35,034 bases of DNA. Source: Clostridia bacterium. GTDB taxonomy: Bacteria; Bacillota; Clostridia; Oscillospirales; CAG-382. The stretch's first letter is position 1. Every line of letters starts with the position of its first letter. The stretch covers positions 1-35,034 of the forward strand of contig JAFYUY010000080.1 in the NCBI GenBank assembly GCA_017549405.1, written 5' to 3'. Positions 23,403 to 35,034 of this stretch are shown one piece after another. The translations under genes and the position numbers were made by a program. Under the pieces are notes generated by a model. That model did not search any database. It was not told the origin of the DNA and worked only from the letters and a program-made list of their open reading frames with translations.

Positions 23403-26400
23403 ATGAAAAAATCAACCCGTATAGCCGCGCTCATTATGTCTTTGGCGGTATCTTTGCCCGGCATAACGATTCCGGGGTTTGCCGAAGAAAACACGGTCGG
23501 CGAGGAAAACACAGCTTTGCTTGCAGAAGAAACAGTCCTGCCGGCAAAATACACCGTAAACAGGCTTGAAAGTCTGTTGCCCCTCGAAACCGCCAAAACC
23601 GGTATCACCACCATCGAAACATTAGGTGTTGACAAAACAGTTTCTCTGTCAAAATATTCCGGAGGCGATGCGGCATCAGGCGCTGTCATAGAAAATAACA
23701 TTTATGGTCTTTCTACTTTTTATCCCGATCTGTATACAAGCGAATACAAATACATTGAAGCGGTTTATTTTTACGCTTCCGACTCCAAAACCCCGTATAA
23801 CGGAAATATGCAATTTACTCTTGGATATTCCAAAAATGTCGCAACAAATGAAAGATCGAATTTTCTCAGTCTCACAATACCATCCGAAACTCCCGTTGTT
23901 ACAGACAAATGGGCATCTCAGGTGTTTGATGTATCCGAAGTTTCCGAAAACTATCCCGAGTTTTTTGAAGAAAGCTTTGCTTACGATCATGTAAGACTGC
24001 GCCCCTTTGGTTCTCTTACCAATTCTGCGGTTGATAATTCCGACAAGATATATATCAAGGAGCTCAATTTCTATAAAAACGACCCTCGCATTTTTGACAA
24101 GACATGCAATGTCTATTACTACCCGTCCGAATCATCCGCAAGGGCTGGCAGTGATAATTACCTCTATTCCGAGAGCTGGAATGCAAGGATACAAAACAAA
24201 GTAAGCAGCACTCTTATCGGTGCCGATGAATGCGACTCATGGATAAGCGTGGAAGACGGAAGAAAATATGCGTCAGGTCAGAAATATACCTACGACTGCG
24301 AAGCCGATCTCTTTCTCTATCCGAGCACGGCAAACGGATATTCCGGATACACCGCTACCTATGTCAGCGATTCGGGAATAATAGACGGTATATCCGAAAC
24401 GGTTTATTCCGATATTTCCTTGGCTTTGACAAGTGTCGGCAATAACAAAAATGTGATAGTATACGTTTCGGGTGCCACGGTTCTCCCCACAATAGTCGGA
24501 AGTGAGGATTGCGGAAGTATCATAATAAAAGGCTTTGACGGCACAAACGATATTCTTGAAGCAAGTAAATCCGGCTCAAAGTTCCTCTGCGATACAGTTA
24601 TTGAAAACATCACCATCAAAGCCCAGTCTATAGATGAACGCTGGATATCTGCCCGCAATTGCAAGCTTACCATAGACAGCTCCTGCAAATTTGAACTCAG
24701 CGATGAATACACCCACAGCGGAACGCAGACCCGCACAGGACTTTATGTGGGCATTTCCTCAAGCTCCACCGGTTACTCGCATTATTCATTCAACAATCCC
24801 GATGTGGTCTATACAATGCTTGCGCCCGTCGGTGGTTACGGATCATCAACCTATATTGCTGACGGAAATGTTGTATTTGATCTTAATGACGGTATATACA
24901 GTTCCATATACGGTGCTGTGCGCAACGGTAACCCGAGCACTTCAAACTATCAGATACTGAATGGAGATGCCGATTTCAACCTTAACGGCGGTACATACAA
25001 AAGCATTACCTCCAACAGCACTACCGGCGGATATGTTAACGGAAACATCACTTTCAACATCAACGGAGGTAGCTACACATCCTCCAAATTCATATTCGGA
25101 AACTCACAGTCCAAAGGCACGCAATATTCTTCCGCAAACAGTGTTTCACTTATCGTGAATGCGGATAAGCTCTCCGAGGCGGGTCAAAGCGCATCCGCTC
25201 TCACAGTTACCGAAAACAGCACTTACGCTTCCATCGATATCGGAAAGACCATATTGATATTCAACAGGACCGACATTTCCGGTGTTCTCCCCACCTCCGT
25301 TTCGGTACCGTCGGCAGATTATTTTCTTAAGGTCAACGGTGGCAGTGCCGTACCTGTATTTGCCGCACAGAATTCCGATGTTCCCGGAGAATTTCTGGGA
25401 TTTGACATAAAGTGCACAAACCGCGGCTACGCCCCTTACATTGGTGACACACGACTCTGGAAAAACAAATACGGTTACTATGATATCCCCGAAACCCAGA
25501 ACGGGCAGGCTACTGACATAACCTTCAGAAACAGCCTTGAGGGCGTATATTTCATGCTCCACTTTGATTCAAACGGCGGAGCAGGTACTGTACAAAGCCA
25601 AAAACATGAGGGTAATACCGTAACAAATCTTCCGGACTGCTCTTTCACAAAGAACGGATATGTGTTTGCAGGCTGGCAGTATAACGGGAATATGTATCCC
25701 GAAGGAGCTGAATACACCGTTGAAAGCGACGCGGTATTCAGTGCGGTATGGGCCGACCCCAACGAGATATCAACCATTTATGTGGACGGAACATACGGAA
25801 AAGATACAAACTACGGCGGTAGCGCATCAGCGGCTCTGAAAACCTTTGATGCCGCAATAGCAAAAGCACATAGCATCTCTGTGAACAAGATCGTTGTGCT
25901 GTCTACTGTCAAATCAACGCTGACAGCCATCCCCTACTCTTCCGAACGTCTTTATATTTCTTCTTCGGACGAAAGAAAGAACTACGGCGGAAGCCTTATC
26001 ATCTCCTCTCCCCTTGCCGTTATGCGCCCCGTAACCTTTGAAAATATGGGGCTTGGCTGCGATGCTTATCAGCATATAAGCACACGCAGCAGCCATGTGA
26101 TATTCGGCGAAGGGCTTTATGCCGCTGAGGGAACAAACGGAATCTATCTCCATGCAGGCGCCATAGCTTCCGCGGTCACCGGTATAAATACCGAAATACA
26201 CAGCGGAAAATTTGCGGCAGCATATTTCGGAGGCGCATATTTCCTGAACGATGGCGAGATCGCAGTCAGGGGCGATTCTCTGCTCACCGTTAACGGAGCC
26301 GTTGATTTCTCTCCCATCTTCGGTTTTGACGGATATACCGGACGCAACGGAAACGCCGTATTTGACGGCAGCGTGGCATTCATCGTCAACAAAGGCTCTG

Positions 26401-29400
26401 TTTCAAAAGTGCAAAGCACACGTATTTCAGATATAACCGGTGCTTTATATGTGATATACAGATCGGACTGTCCCGTTCCCGCTCTTTCTTCCTTCCCCGA
26501 GGCTTCACGCGGAAACTACGGCATACGTATTGTTGGCGAAGGAAGCGTGACTCCGGCATATGGTGCAGACGGAAAAATCATACCCGGAAGCATCCATGCT
26601 ACCTCGAGCAACAATATGTTGGTAAAAATAACCAATTCAAACGGCTTTGAAACAGTTTATCCCCAGGGCGATATTGCACTTGTACCCGGAAGCTACACGG
26701 CTGAATTTATTGAAACTAAAGTTATTGCCTCGGAAAACTTTAACGTCACAGCCCCCATGCCCGGCTTCTATGCAGATGAGAAATTATTCACCTCTTCCGC
26801 TTATTACGCAAGAACAAAATGGTATAGCAATGACTCCGAAGTGACAAAATTCGCAAGCGGAAACAGTTATACAGTTAAAATAACCGTTTACCCTTATTCG
26901 TATGCTGACACTTCAAGTTTTTCATCCGCAACAGTAAACGGCAATGCCGCGCAGGTAATAAAAAATGCAAACGGCACTTTCACGGTATCCTACTCCTTCC
27001 CCGCTATATTTGTTGAGTATAAAAAATATGTAAGTTCCCAAAACGGCAGTGACTCCGGAAACGGATCGCAGTCAAAGCCCTTTGCCACACTATCCGCAGC
27101 AATAAAATCGCTTGCATCGACCGGCGGTACCATATATATATGTGACAAAGTATTCTGCGACAATTCCATCCCCACCTCATCAAAGCCCATACTCATAACA
27201 TCCGAAGGATTTAAAAACGGTGAACTTGTACTTCGCGACAATGCCGCTTTCCCGGCAAGCGGAGACGTGATGTTCAACAATATAAAGATCACCATGGGCG
27301 AAGCCTCACACTTCGATGACCGCGGTCACAAGATCGTATTTGGCGACGGTGCGATCATTGAAAAAGGAAAGATATTCCATGTGGGTCCTTATGCCGCTTA
27401 CCAAAACTACCCCACCATAGATTCCTGCGATATAACGCTCGGTGCTTCTACCTCCATGTCCTCGCTTTATGTGGGTGGTGCATATCTGAGAAACAGCGCA
27501 TCCGGCATAAAGGGAGATGTGAAGATAACCTTGAACGGTGCCACTGTATCTTACTTCAATTTCGGTCCCGACAAGTATCTCCCCGAACACACCAGCGCTT
27601 ATATGGGCGGAAATCTTCTTGTTACCATAAACAGCGGAAGCATCGGAAGCATTAAAAACAGCAAGGTTGAGCTTGATGTTTCCGAAGACACGGTATATCA
27701 GTTCATTTACAACAACGGCACCCCTGATTCCTCTCAGGGAATAGCCGACGCCGTTCCTCCCGCAAAACTTTATACCATATATTCCGGAGTCGGTGGCCGC
27801 GTTGAACACGCATATGATGAAAACGGAAACTCGATTGCCGGCACATTTGATATCATCCCGAACGAAGATCATATAGCGATAATCACAAGAAACAACAGCT
27901 ACACCACGGTTTCTTACGGCGGAAGATATACTCTGCCTGCCGGAAGTGCCGTGAAAGTAGACTATGTTGAAAACGCTTATGCTTTCAAAAATTACAAGGT
28001 GGATCTCGGCGGAGGTAAAGCCGTATACGGAATGTTCTCTGTGAATTCCGAAGGTATTATCCATTTCAACACTTCTCCCGAAAAATCGGGTTACATATTC
28101 GAAGGCTGGTATGCCGATGAAAACTTCACGGAGCTTGTGAGAGACGGCGACTTTATCGGTGATGAGCTTGTGCTTTATGCAAAGTATTCCGCATTCACCA
28201 CAAGCACCATCGTTCCCAAATTCTCGGTGCGCGGAGTTCAGATGCGCGTTCCGCTGAAAGAAGGAGACGAGGCTCAGGGCTTGCGCTTCATAACATCTCT
28301 CAGCAACGATATTGTAGATACCATATGCAGCTTCTCAAACAAAAACAGTTCGGGACTTCGTCCTTCATTGACCTCAGACTCATGCTACGGAACAGTGGTT
28401 ATTCCCACCGAAAAGCTTGGCGGAAAAGCACTTCTGGACGGAGGAATTTATTACTACAACGGCAAAAATTATAAAGCAAAAACAGTTCCTGCCGTGAATC
28501 TTTATTCCAAAAACGCAGAAATCACAGAATACACCGCATGTGTTGTAAGCATCACCGAGGATAACTATCTGCGCAACTATTCAGTACGTCCTTACATCAA
28601 GTATTACACACGTTCCGGAAACCTCACCACGGTTTACGGTGATGAATACAGCGTAAGCGTTATCGATACCACATATGCGATCCTTGAACAAAGCGCGGAA
28701 AGCGTTGCGGTACGTGAATATCTGCGCAACAACATCATGGCATCCTATGCAGAGCGTCTCGGAATTGAGTTTATTCCTTCCGATCTTCTTGAAGAAATCA
28801 AGGAAAAGACTGCTCAGTATAAATCCAACATAGTAAACAGCGCAAACCTTTCTTTGAGTTCCATAAAGGGTACGGTTTATTACGTATCCCCCGACGGAAG
28901 CGATGATAACAACGGAAAATCTCCCTCCACCGCATGGAAATCCATTGCAAAGGTAAACTCCAACCTTGCGGCAGGCGATGCCGTTCTCTTCCGCCGTGAT
29001 GCCGAATACCGAGGCAGGATCACTGCAAGGCAGGGTGTGACCTATTCCGCATACGGAACAGGCGCAAAGCCCATTATAAACGGTTCGTTGAGAGATTATG
29101 CCGATCCGTCACTCTGGACCGAAACAGGAATAGAAAACGTTTACAAGCTCTCTACCCGCATAAACAACGTGGGAATCATCGCATTTGACCACAACGACAT
29201 AATCGGAGATTACGACCAGCTTGTGGGAACCATGCGTGTTTCGGGCGTTTTGTATGACGGAGAGATGTTCATTAATCAGCATAACTTAAAGCGCGATCTT
29301 GAATTCTATTCCAACTTCTCAAACGGCGATCTTTACCTTTACAGTTCCGAAGGAAACCCCGGTTCAAGATTCTCATCCATCGAAATCGGAGGTTACGGCA

Positions 29401-30215
29401 ACCTTCTTACTCCCAGCAGCAACGTTGTGGTGGATAACCTCACATTTGTTTACGGCGGTTCACACGGTGTGGGTGGCGGTGGCGGTCTTGCTACCTATGA
29501 CGCTGACGGCAACTTCATAAGCATCGGCGGAACAAAGAACCTTACCGTTAAGAACTGCATATTCGCATGGGTCGGTGGTTCCATCCTTCCCGGATATAAC
29601 GAAGGCAACACCACTCGCTACGGAAATGCCGTTGAAATGTACGGAAGTGCCGACGGATACACTGTGGATAATTGCTGGATCTATCAGATATATGACACGG
29701 CTGTAACTCACCAGGTTTCCGCCAAGACCACCGGAAACACCATGCAGCAAAACGTTACTTACCGCAACAACCTTATCGAATACTGCCATTGGTCCATAGA
29801 ATTCTACAATGCTCCCTGCTGTAATGACCACCTCAGAATAACCCGCCACATCCTTTCGGAAAACAACATCGTCCGTATGGGCGGTTACGGTTGGGGAAGT
29901 GTACTCCGTCCCACGGGTGCCACACTTTACAACAGCTTCGGTCTTTCAAGAATTCCCGAGCAGACATATGACTTTGTGGCAAAAAATAACATCTTCTTCC
30001 GTTCTGCAGGTCCCATCTTCCGTATAAACGCAAATGCCAGTGAAGATAATCTTGAATTTGAAAACAACCTTTACGTTCAGGATTACGGAAATCATTTCAG
30101 CTGGTATAAGGGCTCGCACTATCCTTACGATGAAAACGTAAGCTCGCTTCTCAGCGGTGAAGGTTCTCAGATCAAAGAAGTCAATACCCGCGGAGTTTAT
30201 TACTACGCACCTTAA
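23403..30215 (+). CDS. Giant secreted multi-module beta-helix protein (2,270 aa)
   Basis: Secreted protein with a signal peptide (STRIAALIMSLAVSLPGIT, cut probably after GFA). An N-terminal jelly-roll-like region covers about 40-290. Three related beta-helix-type modules follow at about 320-700, 788-1200 and 1205-1535. The second and third open with YVDGTYGKDTNYGG and YVSSQNGSDSGNGS plus a (K)xFAT/DAAIxxA line, and share Gly/Asn-rich turns (NLNGGTY, TINSGSIGS) and tails of the type GxVxxAYxxxGxxIxG. InlB/Flg_new-type repeats lie at about 716-785 (GYVFAGW) and 1545-1598 (GYIFEGWYADENF). A domain beginning RGVQMRVPL (about 1609-1800) precedes the C-terminal right-handed beta-helix (about 1823-2270, YVSPDGSDDNNGKSP, YRNNLIEYCHWSIEF). 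No LPXTG, SLH or dockerin anchor is visible. The fold suggests a polysaccharide lyase or hydrolase, but no catalytic residues can be assigned. Confidence 0.9.
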   Translation: MKKSTRIAALIMSLAVSLPGITIPGFAEENTVGEENTALLAEETVLPAKYTVNRLESLLPLETAKTGITTIETLGVDKTVSLSKYSGGDAASGAVIENNIYGLSTFYPDLYTSEYKYIEAVYFYASDSKTPYNGNMQFTLGYSKNVATNERSNFLSLTIPSETPVVTDKWASQVFDVSEVSENYPEFFEESFAYDHVRLRPFGSLTNSAVDNSDKIYIKELNFYKNDPRIFDKTCNVYYYPSESSARAGSDNYLYSESWNARIQNKVSSTLIGADECDSWISVEDGRKYASGQKYTYDCEADLFLYPSTANGYSGYTATYVSDSGIIDGISETVYSDISLALTSVGNNKNVIVYVSGATVLPTIVGSEDCGSIIIKGFDGTNDILEASKSGSKFLCDTVIENITIKAQSIDERWISARNCKLTIDSSCKFELSDEYTHSGTQTRTGLYVGISSSSTGYSHYSFNNPDVVYTMLAPVGGYGSSTYIADGNVVFDLNDGIYSSIYGAVRNGNPSTSNYQILNGDADFNLNGGTYKSITSNSTTGGYVNGNITFNINGGSYTSSKFIFGNSQSKGTQYSSANSVSLIVNADKLSEAGQSASALTVTENSTYASIDIGKTILIFNRTDISGVLPTSVSVPSADYFLKVNGGSAVPVFAAQNSDVPGEFLGFDIKCTNRGYAPYIGDTRLWKNKYGYYDIPETQNGQATDITFRNSLEGVYFMLHFDSNGGAGTVQSQKHEGNTVTNLPDCSFTKNGYVFAGWQYNGNMYPEGAEYTVESDAVFSAVWADPNEISTIYVDGTYGKDTNYGGSASAALKTFDAAIAKAHSISVNKIVVLSTVKSTLTAIPYSSERLYISSSDERKNYGGSLIISSPLAVMRPVTFENMGLGCDAYQHISTRSSHVIFGEGLYAAEGTNGIYLHAGAIASAVTGINTEIHSGKFAAAYFGGAYFLNDGEIAVRGDSLLTVNGAVDFSPIFGFDGYTGRNGNAVFDGSVAFIVNKGSVSKVQSTRISDITGALYVIYRSDCPVPALSSFPEASRGNYGIRIVGEGSVTPAYGADGKIIPGSIHATSSNNMLVKITNSNGFETVYPQGDIALVPGSYTAEFIETKVIASENFNVTAPMPGFYADEKLFTSSAYYARTKWYSNDSEVTKFASGNSYTVKITVYPYSYADTSSFSSATVNGNAAQVIKNANGTFTVSYSFPAIFVEYKKYVSSQNGSDSGNGSQSKPFATLSAAIKSLASTGGTIYICDKVFCDNSIPTSSKPILITSEGFKNGELVLRDNAAFPASGDVMFNNIKITMGEASHFDDRGHKIVFGDGAIIEKGKIFHVGPYAAYQNYPTIDSCDITLGASTSMSSLYVGGAYLRNSASGIKGDVKITLNGATVSYFNFGPDKYLPEHTSAYMGGNLLVTINSGSIGSIKNSKVELDVSEDTVYQFIYNNGTPDSSQGIADAVPPAKLYTIYSGVGGRVEHAYDENGNSIAGTFDIIPNEDHIAIITRNNSYTTVSYGGRYTLPAGSAVKVDYVENAYAFKNYKVDLGGGKAVYGMFSVNSEGIIHFNTSPEKSGYIFEGWYADENFTELVRDGDFIGDELVLYAKYSAFTTSTIVPKFSVRGVQMRVPLKEGDEAQGLRFITSLSNDIVDTICSFSNKNSSGLRPSLTSDSCYGTVVIPTEKLGGKALLDGGIYYYNGKNYKAKTVPAVNLYSKNAEITEYTACVVSITEDNYLRNYSVRPYIKYYTRSGNLTTVYGDEYSVSVIDTTYAILEQSAESVAVREYLRNNIMASYAERLGIEFIPSDLLEEIKEKTAQYKSNIVNSANLSLSSIKGTVYYVSPDGSDDNNGKSPSTAWKSIAKVNSNLAAGDAVLFRRDAEYRGRITARQGVTYSAYGTGAKPIINGSLRDYADPSLWTETGIENVYKLSTRINNVGIIAFDHNDIIGDYDQLVGTMRVSGVLYDGEMFINQHNLKRDLEFYSNFSNGDLYLYSSEGNPGSRFSSIEIGGYGNLLTPSSNVVVDNLTFVYGGSHGVGGGGGLATYDADGNFISIGGTKNLTVKNCIFAWVGGSILPGYNEGNTTRYGNAVEMYGSADGYTVDNCWIYQIYDTAVTHQVSAKTTGNTMQQNVTYRNNLIEYCHWSIEFYNAPCCNDHLRITRHILSENNIVRMGGYGWGSVLRPTGATLYNSFGLSRIPEQTYDFVAKNNIFFRSAGPIFRINANASEDNLEFENNLYVQDYGNHFSWYKGSHYPYDENVSSLLSGEGSQIKEVNTRGVYYYAP

Positions 30216-31301: not shown

Positions 31302-34300
31302 ATGAAAATCAAAAACCTGGTATCCATTATTGCAGCAATCGGTCTTGCAGTGGCCGGAAGCGTATTTGCCAACGCTGACAATCGCCATATCAGCCTTGAC
31401 GAAAACGGCAGGGTCATCCGCGAATATAACACAGCGGAAACGCATCCCGCACTTCGTTCCGGTACGGAAGCCATAGTTACTCAGCTCCCCATTGTTCCGA
31501 TCGGGGATACTGCCGAAGACGAAAACACGGCAGAGCTTATGGCAGACAGTGATCTTGTGGCTCACGAAATAGAAAAGTGCACCATACTTCTGTCGGAGGA
31601 TACAGCACAGCTTATCGTAAGACTCAATGAATTTTACGATGCAAAATATAAGCTTTGTGCCGAGCTTGTGGACAGAAACGACAATGTTGTTGCCACACAA
31701 ACAGGCTGCGAATACGATTTTGAAAGCCGCTGGAACTGTCAGCTTATATACGACCTTGAATACATTCCCGGCTTTGAGCTTAACGTAAGCGAAAACTATT
31801 TTGTCAAGTTCACATATTCGGGGGATTTCAACTTTGTGAATGAAACCGGCAGAGTAGGCTTTATGGTCAACGACGACCCGTATCTCAGATCCGGTGAGAT
31901 GATCGATGCAGATGCAGGTAATTTCAAATTACATGTTGCCAACTTCAATCCCGATTACACGTATTATGTGGGAATTGACGGTGTAAGATACGAGCCCACA
32001 GATATTTCCGACGGATATCTCTATGTAACGGCAGAAAATCTTGACAACTATCCTTATGATTACATACCCGTATCGCTTTATGCGCATAACGGCAGCTTTG
32101 AACGCTACTGTGGCGAGATTGAAATACCATTCATTGTTTACGGCAGTGATGCCTATGATGAACATTACAACGGACTTTATATAGAAAAAGCGATAGGTCT
32201 TGATACAAGAGCTCTCTTTTTTGATATTTACAACAAAGAAAACGGTGCGGTTTATACAGCACAGGAGGCAGCAAACATCAAGATCCATATGCTGGATACC
32301 GTAACAGGCGCAAATGTCGGTAATGCAACGGTTCAGCATTACCCAAGCGACAACTTTGTTGAAGCAAAAATAAACATCACAACCACTCCCGTAAATAACA
32401 GAGCATATCTTGTGATAGTTGACGACGGCTATACCATAAGAACTGTAACCATATATGCCACAAATTCCCCCGGCTTCAGATTCTGCGCAGTTGACGATGG
32501 CTACGGTTCGTATTCTTCTTATGATATTCCCGACCGTCAGAACTATACCGGTATGATCTTTGATTCATACAATATTTCCGACATTTCCAAGCTTGACATT
32601 TCAATTACCGATTATGACGGAAACACGGTAGTTGCGTTAGATAAAGGAAGTCTCAGATACAGAAACAATGTTACATGGGCAAATAATGTTATAAATTTCA
32701 CCATGACACGCAAGATACGCGTGGATTACGATTCAGAATATTTGTTTACAGTTAACTACAACGGTGAAACGATCAGTGTTAACGAATGTTATTTTTACCC
32801 GCTCTACGGCTCTTCAAGCAGCTATTACATAGACGGATACATAACCGATTCATTTGCCACCGAAACCAACACTTATATAGTTTTCGGGCGTCGTGTGGAG
32901 GGCTTTAACGAAGCATCTCTTAAATATGCCCTTTATTCCCGCGCAAACGGACAAAAGTATTTCGGAACAGTCGAAAGAGTGATTTGTGATGACGGTTGGT
33001 ATAAATACCTCGTGCTCAAATTTAACCATGTACTTCCCGACGGAAATTACGGTGAATGGGAACTCTTGGTATGCGATGAGTCGGGCGGAATAGTTTATCG
33101 TGAGGACGGATACGACATTCATACCGATACATTACCTTATATATATAGCTATACATATACCGATGAAAGCGGTATTGTCCACCTGTTCTGCGAAGGACTC
33201 ACCGCAGGAAACTACAAAATGACGACATTTGATACGGCACAAAACAAAGCGGTTTCCTTCCCGCTCACTTATACGGGAACAAAGGGAGAACTCACCATAT
33301 CTACCGACAAGCTTTGTTCTGTCTTGCCCAAAAACGATTGCTTCTATATCGAAGGCAACGGAAAATGGATAGGCGAGGTAGACGCATGGTTATTTAATCT
33401 TCCGTTTATTCCCGATAATGCTTTCTATGCAAAACACAAAAAACTCACCCACCATACCGCAATACTTTGCCTCCCCTTCGGTGAATACACTCAGTACAGA
33501 GTTTCCGAAGACCGCGATGCGCTTACTTCTATCCCCTTCAACGCCATGAAGCGCAATATTCTGTTTACCCTTTCCGCAGGTGATGGTCAAAAGACTGTCT
33601 ACGGTCAGTTCAAAAAGGCGGATGGTACTCTTTCCGAAATAATGTCAACAAAAATAACCTGCGATGCCATAGCTCCCATTCTTTCAAACTTTGTGGGGCT
33701 GCCCGGAAAATTAGTTAAAGAAAATGATGACTATCTGACCTTTGAATTTTCTTTCGATTCCACGGAAGCCGGCATGATCTCCATGTCATATTATGACGCA
33801 AACGGCAATCCCATAACCGATAACACCACCTACTGCTATGATATAGTTGAGGGTCAAAACCAAAAACAAATATCTCTTTGGTGCTATGAGGACGAAGACT
33901 TTTCAAAGACAGCAAAAATAAAGCTTTTTGCCATTGACGCTTCCGGAAACCAGTCGGAAATATACGAATTTGATGTGAGTGTAATTGAGCTTTATTCCAA
34001 TGTAGACGTTGCGGGCGGATATATCAAAGTGAACAATCAGACGGGATATATCGAATATGCTGAAATAACCGCTGATGAGCTCCGTATTCCCTCCAATGCC
34101 AACGGCATTACTATTACAGGTATCGCACCCTACGCTTTTTCAGATTGCAACAATATAACAAAGGTCACTATTCCCGCAACTATAACAGAGATCCCCACAG
34201 ATGCGTTCTATGGTCTTACCATTACCGAGATCGTGGGCAAAGAAGGCTCTGCTGCACAGACATTTGCAAATAATTACGGCATCGGTTTTGAAGCAATTAC

Positions 34301-34496
34301 AGTGGAACCGGGTGACGTAACAAGTGACGGAAATGTAAACCGCCAGGACCTCCTCCGCCTTGCAAAGTACTTTGCGGGCTGGGATGTGGAAATTGATGAA
34401 ATGGCATCCGATGTAACAGCAGATGGAAATGTCAACCGCCAGGATCTTCTCCGCCTTGCAAAATATTTCGCTGGCTGGGATGTGTCACTCGGCTGA
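31302..34496 (+). CDS. Secreted dockerin-containing surface protein (1,064 aa)
   Basis: Secreted protein with a signal peptide (IKNLVSIIAAIGLAVAGSVF, cut near FANA). About 870 residues follow in which I recognise no named domain. They are rich in Tyr, Asp and Asn, with many beta-strand-like stretches such as YLVIVDDGYTIRTVTIYA, which suggests Ig-like or similar beta modules. Residues about 900-1000 contain a BspA/LRR_5-type repeat (ITGIAPYAFSDCNNITKVTIP, TEIPTDAFYG). Residues about 1004-1064 are a type I dockerin with two nearly identical halves, each DVTxDGNVNRQDLLRLAKYF plus AGWDV, showing the Asp/Asn calcium ligands. A dockerin implies docking to a cohesin on a scaffold or cell-surface protein; none is encoded in this window. 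AAAAGGAG precedes the ATG. Confidence 0.9.
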   Translation: MKIKNLVSIIAAIGLAVAGSVFANADNRHISLDENGRVIREYNTAETHPALRSGTEAIVTQLPIVPIGDTAEDENTAELMADSDLVAHEIEKCTILLSEDTAQLIVRLNEFYDAKYKLCAELVDRNDNVVATQTGCEYDFESRWNCQLIYDLEYIPGFELNVSENYFVKFTYSGDFNFVNETGRVGFMVNDDPYLRSGEMIDADAGNFKLHVANFNPDYTYYVGIDGVRYEPTDISDGYLYVTAENLDNYPYDYIPVSLYAHNGSFERYCGEIEIPFIVYGSDAYDEHYNGLYIEKAIGLDTRALFFDIYNKENGAVYTAQEAANIKIHMLDTVTGANVGNATVQHYPSDNFVEAKINITTTPVNNRAYLVIVDDGYTIRTVTIYATNSPGFRFCAVDDGYGSYSSYDIPDRQNYTGMIFDSYNISDISKLDISITDYDGNTVVALDKGSLRYRNNVTWANNVINFTMTRKIRVDYDSEYLFTVNYNGETISVNECYFYPLYGSSSSYYIDGYITDSFATETNTYIVFGRRVEGFNEASLKYALYSRANGQKYFGTVERVICDDGWYKYLVLKFNHVLPDGNYGEWELLVCDESGGIVYREDGYDIHTDTLPYIYSYTYTDESGIVHLFCEGLTAGNYKMTTFDTAQNKAVSFPLTYTGTKGELTISTDKLCSVLPKNDCFYIEGNGKWIGEVDAWLFNLPFIPDNAFYAKHKKLTHHTAILCLPFGEYTQYRVSEDRDALTSIPFNAMKRNILFTLSAGDGQKTVYGQFKKADGTLSEIMSTKITCDAIAPILSNFVGLPGKLVKENDDYLTFEFSFDSTEAGMISMSYYDANGNPITDNTTYCYDIVEGQNQKQISLWCYEDEDFSKTAKIKLFAIDASGNQSEIYEFDVSVIELYSNVDVAGGYIKVNNQTGYIEYAEITADELRIPSNANGITITGIAPYAFSDCNNITKVTIPATITEIPTDAFYGLTITEIVGKEGSAAQTFANNYGIGFEAITVEPGDVTSDGNVNRQDLLRLAKYFAGWDVEIDEMASDVTADGNVNRQDLLRLAKYFAGWDVSLG

Positions 34497-34520
34497 AAAT
34501 CCACAACAAAAAAGCTTTTT

Positions 34521-34555
34521 CCCGCGGGCTTTACCGCCTGCGGGATTCTTTATTG
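34521..34555 (+). terminator. Terminator after the dockerin-protein gene
   Basis: CCCGC and GGC pair with GCC and GCGGG around a TTTACC loop, followed by ATTCTTTATTGTTTT. Confidence 0.8.
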
Positions 34556-34584
34556 TTTTATTAATTGCAAATGTTTGAAAGGTA

Positions 34585-34613
34585 TTGACTTTTGGCAAAA
34601 AAAATTGTATCAT
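34585..34613 (+). promoter_or_regulatory. Promoter at the head of the 34.6-35.0 kb leader
   Basis: TTGACT (34585-34590), 17-base spacer, TATCAT (34608-34613). The predicted start near 34620 lies about 355 bases before the next start codon, leaving an unusually long transcribed leader. Confidence 0.65.
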
Positions 34614-34619
34614 AATATT

Positions 34620-34853
34620 ACCACATACTATAAACCATTATAAAATTCGGGTATTTTTGTTTTCAAAAATACCCTCACTCTGCCTGCCCGTGAATAAATC
34701 AAAACCCGTAACAATGTGTAAAAAACGCAGGCATTGATATTTTTCAATTTTGGGTTGAGAATATTCCCGGGGGGTTATAGTGTGTGGTAACATTGAATCC
34801 TATGCCTCGTTTTTTTTGCGTGGTGCAGGTTTCTCTGTTGCCACGCATTTTTT
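34620..34853 (+). ncRNA. Candidate structured leader or small RNA, family unknown
   Basis: About 234 bases from the predicted start to an intrinsic terminator, with no ORF of note. An 11-bp hairpin lies at 34649-34674 (GGGTATTTTTG/CAAAAATACCC). A perfect 7-bp stem TGCCTGC/GCAGGCA joins 34681-34687 to 34727-34733. CAATGT at 34712-34717, inside that loop, is complementary to ACATTG at 34790-34795, a possible pseudoknot. AACCC at 34703-34707 can pair with either of two GGGTT copies (34752-34756, 34772-34776). The terminator loop carries GCAGG, able to compete for CCTGC at 34683-34687. This fits an attenuating leader or a stand-alone small RNA. I could not match it by eye to 6S, SRP, c-di-GMP or other known RNAs. 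Confidence 0.45.
34817..34853 (+). terminator. Intrinsic terminator inside the leader
   Basis: Perfect 7-bp stem TGCGTGG/CCACGCA (34817-34823 with 34841-34847), 17-base loop, then TTTTTTA. It lies 123 bases before the next start codon, with no clear new promoter after it, so the following gene would need readthrough. Confidence 0.75.
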
Positions 34854-34975
34854 ATCGTGTGAGTTTTTTGAGAAAGGTGATGAACTTTAAACATTTTGTA
34901 TATCGAAATCGCAGAAATGAATTTCATGCGCATTTTTTCAACCCGAACTATATTAAATGAAAAGGAGACTTTTTA

Positions 34976-35034
34976 ATGAAAAAACTCATCAGCATTTTAA
35001 TAACAGTTTGTATGTTATCTTCGATGATTCAGCT
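34976..35034 (+). CDS. Start of a secreted protein, cut by the right edge
   Basis: ATG 34976 follows AAAAGGAG at a nine-base spacing. The 19 complete visible codons read KKLISILITVCMLSSMIQ after Met, which is the basic and hydrophobic part of a signal peptide. Function cannot be inferred. It continues the run of secreted-protein genes in this region. Confidence 0.75.
   Translation, partial: MKKLISILITVCMLSSMIQ

Follow-up and report, generated by a model that had tools for sequence, protein, structure and literature searches.

The question raised by this locus is why a leader of about 355 nt separates a promoter from the start of a gene for a secreted protein, and whether this leader controls the gene. 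The window, that is, the whole stretch of 35,034 nt that was analysed, corresponds to a contig (G000:C74) from an incomplete genome (completeness 58.9%). Within it, a dockerin-bearing gene (31302-34496) is followed by its own terminator (34520-34545) and then by a sigma-70-type promoter (34585-34613) matching the consensus at 10 of 12 positions, from which the leader extends to the ATG at 34976. The promoter, the structured leader with its internal terminator and the secreted-protein gene after it had been proposed in the original prediction and have been borne out. As regards the surroundings, large proteins of surface type are encoded upstream: the product of 31302-34496 combines BspA-like repeats with the dockerin, and 23403-30215 encodes a protein of 2270 aa with Listeria-Bacteroides repeats. 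The leader is far more stably folded than its dinucleotide shuffles (z = -5.8 for 34620-34853 and z = -6.1 for 34614-34800), none of which equalled either value. The features to which the text refers, with the evidence for each, are the following:

34585-34613, forward strand: promoter, with -35 TTGACT (34585-34590), a 17-nt spacer and -10 TATCAT (34608-34613)
34618-34633, forward strand: 5' strand of the closing stem P1, TTACCACATACTATAA (inverted repeat, folding)
34649-34674, forward strand: 11-bp hairpin within the P1 domain, a subtype-dependent arm (folding and repeat search)
34720-34734, forward strand: strand b, AAAAAACGCAGGCAT, an apical loop strand able to capture c (pairing comparison)
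34775-34790, forward strand: 3' strand of P1 (P1'), TTATAGTGTGTGGTAA (inverted repeat, folding)
34791-34810, forward strand: x and the first part of c, forming the 5' strand of the antiterminator hairpin (folding, half-swap comparison)
34802-34815, forward strand: strand c, ATGCCTCGTTTTTT, whose partner is either b or, within the antiterminator, the 5' arm of the terminator
34817-34853, forward strand: intrinsic terminator, with stem-loop 34817-34847 and U-run (T6) 34848-34853
34818-34837, forward strand: 3' strand of the antiterminator hairpin, that is, the terminator 5' arm and loop y (folding, covariation)
34962-34967, forward strand: Shine-Dalgarno AAGGAG (sequence)
34976-35034, forward strand: start of the putatively regulated gene, with signal peptide MKKLISILITVCMLSSMIQ..., truncated at 35034, where the contig ends

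The main element of this fold is P1, a 16-bp stem which begins 4 nt past the -10 and joins the first transcribed bases to those just before the terminator. Its region is the strongest repeat in the leader (a 23-nt inverted repeat, 87%), and it was missing from the stems first listed. Among those stems, the 11-bp hairpin was exact and the terminator real, although longer than had been stated. Moreover, the 7-bp stem TGCCTGC/GCAGGCA, the pseudoknot CAATGT/ACATTG and the competition for GCAGG can all be found in the window, but the first and the last have no counterpart in the relatives read and the second is not among the important stems; the conserved partner of GCAGGC is GCCTCG downstream. The pairings of consequence are those of b with c, on the 3' side of P1, and of x and c with the 5' arm and loop of the terminator. 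In the window leader, the x-c antiterminator hairpin and the terminator are mutually exclusive by pairing, and when folding of the growing RNA is computed, P1 appears first, the antiterminator at 34836 and the terminator only at 34852. The antiterminator of the window has several mismatches. Furthermore, P1' has an alternative partner in this leader and its subfamily, namely the 3' arm of the terminator; at full length this pairing gives a large terminator-like fold, and for this reason the subfamily may switch somewhat differently.

The window leader is not an isolated case. No copy was found by blastn in the same genus, and the same search over 63 genomes of the family gave two strong relatives and a weak one in another genus (L032, L033, L034), with E down to 7e-14, so that the homology search proposed at the outset did yield relatives in other genera. 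These three show the same order as the window: promoter, P1, inner arm with an A-rich strand, P1', GCCTCGTTTTT (in L034, GCCGCGTTTTT), terminator and signal-peptide gene. A covariance model built from the four sequences (R1) gave strong matches in further families of the order, together with numerous weaker matches; of the latter, those that were read had the same architecture except for the lowest-scoring (L064). The commonest form, described by the pattern CAATCGGAGN{1,4}GCRTTTTTNGTGCG, occurs in at least 119 stretches of GTDB genomes, with a chance expectation below 1 by our own estimate; among the matches listed, 80 of 80 come from uncultured Clostridia, mostly of the guts of ruminants, deer and rabbits. 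Finally, a sequence-only model of 43 relatives, from which the window and its near relatives were excluded, finds the family core at 34717-34853 (forward strand) in the window with E = 1.4e-6 in 62 kb, and also recovers six of six near relatives. The window leader thus belongs to a large family of RNA leaders which the Rfam library does not contain. As for subtypes, type 2 elements (e.g. L091, L108 and L143) have GAAUUUG/CAAAUUC flanking the A-rich loop. Often they bear in addition a GGG..CCC arm, to which the GGGTATTTTTG hairpin of the window may correspond.

The helices of this family covary. The distance from the end of the -10 to P1 is 4-5 nt in 86 of the 104 elements having a -10. Across 110 distinct elements, most positions of P1 show 2-5 standard pair types, and the strands of one element pair at a median of 14 of 14 positions, against 11 for strands from different copies, the finder's choice of the best complement inflating the percentage paired. 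In strand b, AAAAA is nearly invariant among 53 diverse elements, and the pairing of b (GGUAAAAAUGCANGCUC) with c (GGAGCNNUGCGUUUUU) is present in nearly every copy, with duplex scores of 29 for own, 25 for swapped and 16 for shuffled partners. In the 53-sequence alignment, 10 of the 18 pairs in b:c and the terminator are altered in both partners (32 double-change cells vs 9.6 in shuffles), as are 6 of the 9 pairs of the antiterminator helix x:y, which shares bases with c (23 cells vs 6.5); in both cases the cells paired exceed all shuffles, of which there were 500 for the former. The controls for covariation were shuffles and register shifts, and the statistics take no account of kinship. Bases common to two competing helices stay compatible with both partners, and this is the signature of a switch.

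The energies and the order of folding point the same way. The antiterminator, x against y, folds before the 3' arm of the terminator is complete in 113 of 113 distinct elements, and the median energies of its partial fold and of the terminator are -15.4 and -15.5 kcal/mol, respectively. Antiterminator halves fold better with their own partner than with swapped ones (p = 7e-13; p = 9e-8 for copies without canonical x), the values for the window being -13.1 own, -7.1 swapped and -6.8 shuffled. At the level of sequence, then, P1, b:c, the antiterminator and the terminator are established, together with the exclusion of the antiterminator both by b:c and by the terminator. Two marks by which riboswitches are recognised are found here: a conserved and structured 5' leader domain and, as judged only from sequence, covariation and energies, mutually exclusive folds of an expression platform.

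The element is probably a cis-acting, riboswitch-like transcription attenuator of a family not in Rfam, a reading to which we give a probability of about 0.75. According to this model, the transcript would begin with the 5' strand of P1 or slightly upstream of it; P1 would close a domain containing the variable arms and the A-rich strand b, with x, c and the terminator coming after P1'. In the OFF state, b would capture c in a pseudoknot through P1, c would be lost to the antiterminator and the terminator would fold. In the ON state, b would be kept in a hairpin of its own, x and c would pair with the 5' arm and loop of the terminator as they emerge and, with the terminator blocked, the polymerase would read into the gene of the secreted or surface protein. 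Read-through would thus occur when the antiterminator forms first, b:c being the presumed OFF state. The balance may be tipped by a small molecule, most simply as a ligand of the P1 domain, or possibly by a protein or RNA partner. The attenuator as such is supported by the evidence, since homologs are found in many genera, the stems covary, antiterminator and terminator are conserved, genes lie close by and Rfam gives no match; it had been foreseen in the original prediction together with the want of a recognised class, but the switching strands named there are not the conserved ones.

Of the other explanations, the one which keeps most of this model has the same attenuator worked in trans, with an antiterminator protein that binds RNA, or a small RNA that base-pairs with b or c, in place of a small molecule. 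Strand b, which is A-rich, near-invariant and single-stranded in one state, is what contact with a protein or RNA would call for, and the diversity of the genes downstream would suit such a factor; the large domain closed by P1, with its conserved junction bases, exceeds what protein sites usually need, and this makes a trans-acting factor rather unlikely.

The genes that follow the element bear on both its function and its signal. A gene with a ribosome-binding site comes next in 75 of 81 named copies, with a median of 23 nt between the terminator and the start. By a crude rule, 45 of the 75 downstream genes (60%) encode signal-peptide-like sequences, compared with 25% (70 of 276) of the remaining genes of the same stretches (p = 6e-8). 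Of 69 downstream proteins searched with Pfam, 19 have BspA-type leucine-rich repeats and 4 a dockerin, while M23 peptidase and collagen repeats are found in 3 each; 72 neighbouring genes taken as a control were mostly housekeeping, and their 25 commonest families include none of these. The remainder are small proteins, zinc ribbons, helix-turn-helix proteins and a few enzymes, and this functional mixture means that no ligand suggests itself.

Some individual loci deserve mention. The element precedes small proteins beginning MKVAVIGSRS... or MKTAVIGSRK... at G000:C137:18497-18616 (L212) and at L103; their likeness by eye to the nucleotide-binding SLOG/DUF2493 proteins is a possible clue to the signal. 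In G055:C15 (L034, L065), the element and a lipoprotein gene lie shortly upstream of a ZTP riboswitch (Rfam RF01750), beyond which one gene resembles, by its translation, a purine-biosynthesis enzyme. Recurrent tiny proteins (MYYHLFNAVTDA... and similar) stand directly 3' of the element in different genomes (L119, L150, L165, L166).

The placement of these genes also speaks to the second half of the original prediction, an independent small RNA, roughly 234 nt long, which would end at the terminator and leave the downstream gene to some other control. An own promoter and terminator, a stable fold and some tandem copies without a clear gene immediately after them would fit such an RNA. Nevertheless, most copies lie directly before a ribosome-binding site and gene, at the short distance given above, one kind of downstream gene is enriched, and the antiterminator that has been kept would be useless in a plain small RNA. 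This makes it less likely than the attenuator and, in our judgement, improbable.

The family is both abundant and narrowly distributed. A model of 53 sequences (R2, cut-off E<=1e-5) matched 96 of 391 genomes of the class, and twelve carrier genomes that were counted hold 7-29 copies each; since only a few candidates were scored in each genome during the large scans, the prevalence and copy numbers obtained from these are lower bounds. Across a phylum sample of 299 genomes, R2 matched only the window's own genome and none of the 298 others. Six copies lie in the window's genome. Three of these form a tandem array (G000:C53:9203-9967; L208, L244), in which every copy has a promoter and a terminator; the array is followed by a small gene and then a tRNA, and tandem copies likewise occur in L055, L072 and L131. 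Such numbers and arrays would also be expected if a promoter-terminator cassette moved or duplicated, its structure serving its own spread and not regulation. Against this, a pattern search of 2.9 million viral contigs did not find the commonest form, blastn of the window element against plasmids and phages gave no match, copies within one genome diverge in sequence while retaining their pairing, and most loci are gene-proximal, so that a cassette is slightly less probable again than the small RNA. A polysaccharide-deacetylase protein search of the viral contigs found nothing.

The covariance check against Rfam proposed at the outset has been carried out: in Rfam 15, with the window and 20 relatives, no family matches the element, the sub-threshold hints (mir-1303, Fusobacteriales-1 and preQ1) being due to chance or on the wrong strand. 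No description of the motif was found in the literature searched, although the supplementary lists of metagenome screens may hold an unnamed version. That a described class (c-di-GMP, T-box or leader-peptide attenuator) was missed by its Rfam model is the least probable explanation of all, since the wide surface regulon resembling that of c-di-GMP-I and the terminator/antiterminator pairs shared with T-boxes are outweighed by the lack of an Rfam match to such a class at E<=1, by a T-box core UGGNACC in 1 of 120 elements, by a candidate upstream ORF in only 22 of 120, not conserved, and by genomes with 12-29 copies and no GGDEF match.

It is somewhat favoured, on balance, that the family constitutes a new riboswitch class confined to Clostridia, reaching about 29 copies per genome, responding to a signal other than c-di-GMP and governing a surface and secreted regulon in gut bacteria. 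To our knowledge, few RNA classes reach tens of copies per genome, and we know of almost nothing on the control of host or fibre contact in rumen and gut Clostridia. In these largely uncultured organisms, the family picks out a regulon that comprises adhesin-like, leucine-rich-repeat, dockerin and lipoprotein genes; knowing the ligand would tell what the signal is, and the element is sufficiently compact for study in a laboratory host.

As regards known systems, c-di-GMP was the first suspect, because c-di-GMP-I (GEMM) riboswitches also serve wide and mixed surface regulons (PMC7266159). Both occur in many copies, and the regulons of both range widely over surface, membrane and environment genes; however, the present element has a different fold, the c-di-GMP-I/II aptamer models have no match in the window or 20 relatives, and GGDEF (E<=1e-10) is absent from the many-copy carriers G430, G570, G610, G625, G658, G678 and G777, of which G678 has 29 copies and G430, G610 and G777 have 12-14. 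Other carriers have GGDEF, and c-di-GMP as the common ligand was rejected, being unlikely on these grounds.

T-box leaders are likewise long leaders of Clostridia in which terminator and antiterminator compete, whereas the present family does not precede aminoacyl-tRNA or amino-acid genes. With preQ1 and other pseudoknot aptamers it shares A-rich and U-rich strands and the pairing of a loop strand with a tail that follows the closing stem on its 3' side, but it is far longer (108-221 nt from the start of P1 to c), its consensus is different and the only preQ1 hint was on the opposite strand. Finally, a domain closed by P1 and mutually exclusive antiterminator and terminator are found in transcription-attenuating riboswitches such as those of SAM-I and lysine type, which gave no Rfam match, whereas here an inner strand would take the 5' strand of the antiterminator by means of a pseudoknot formed outside P1.
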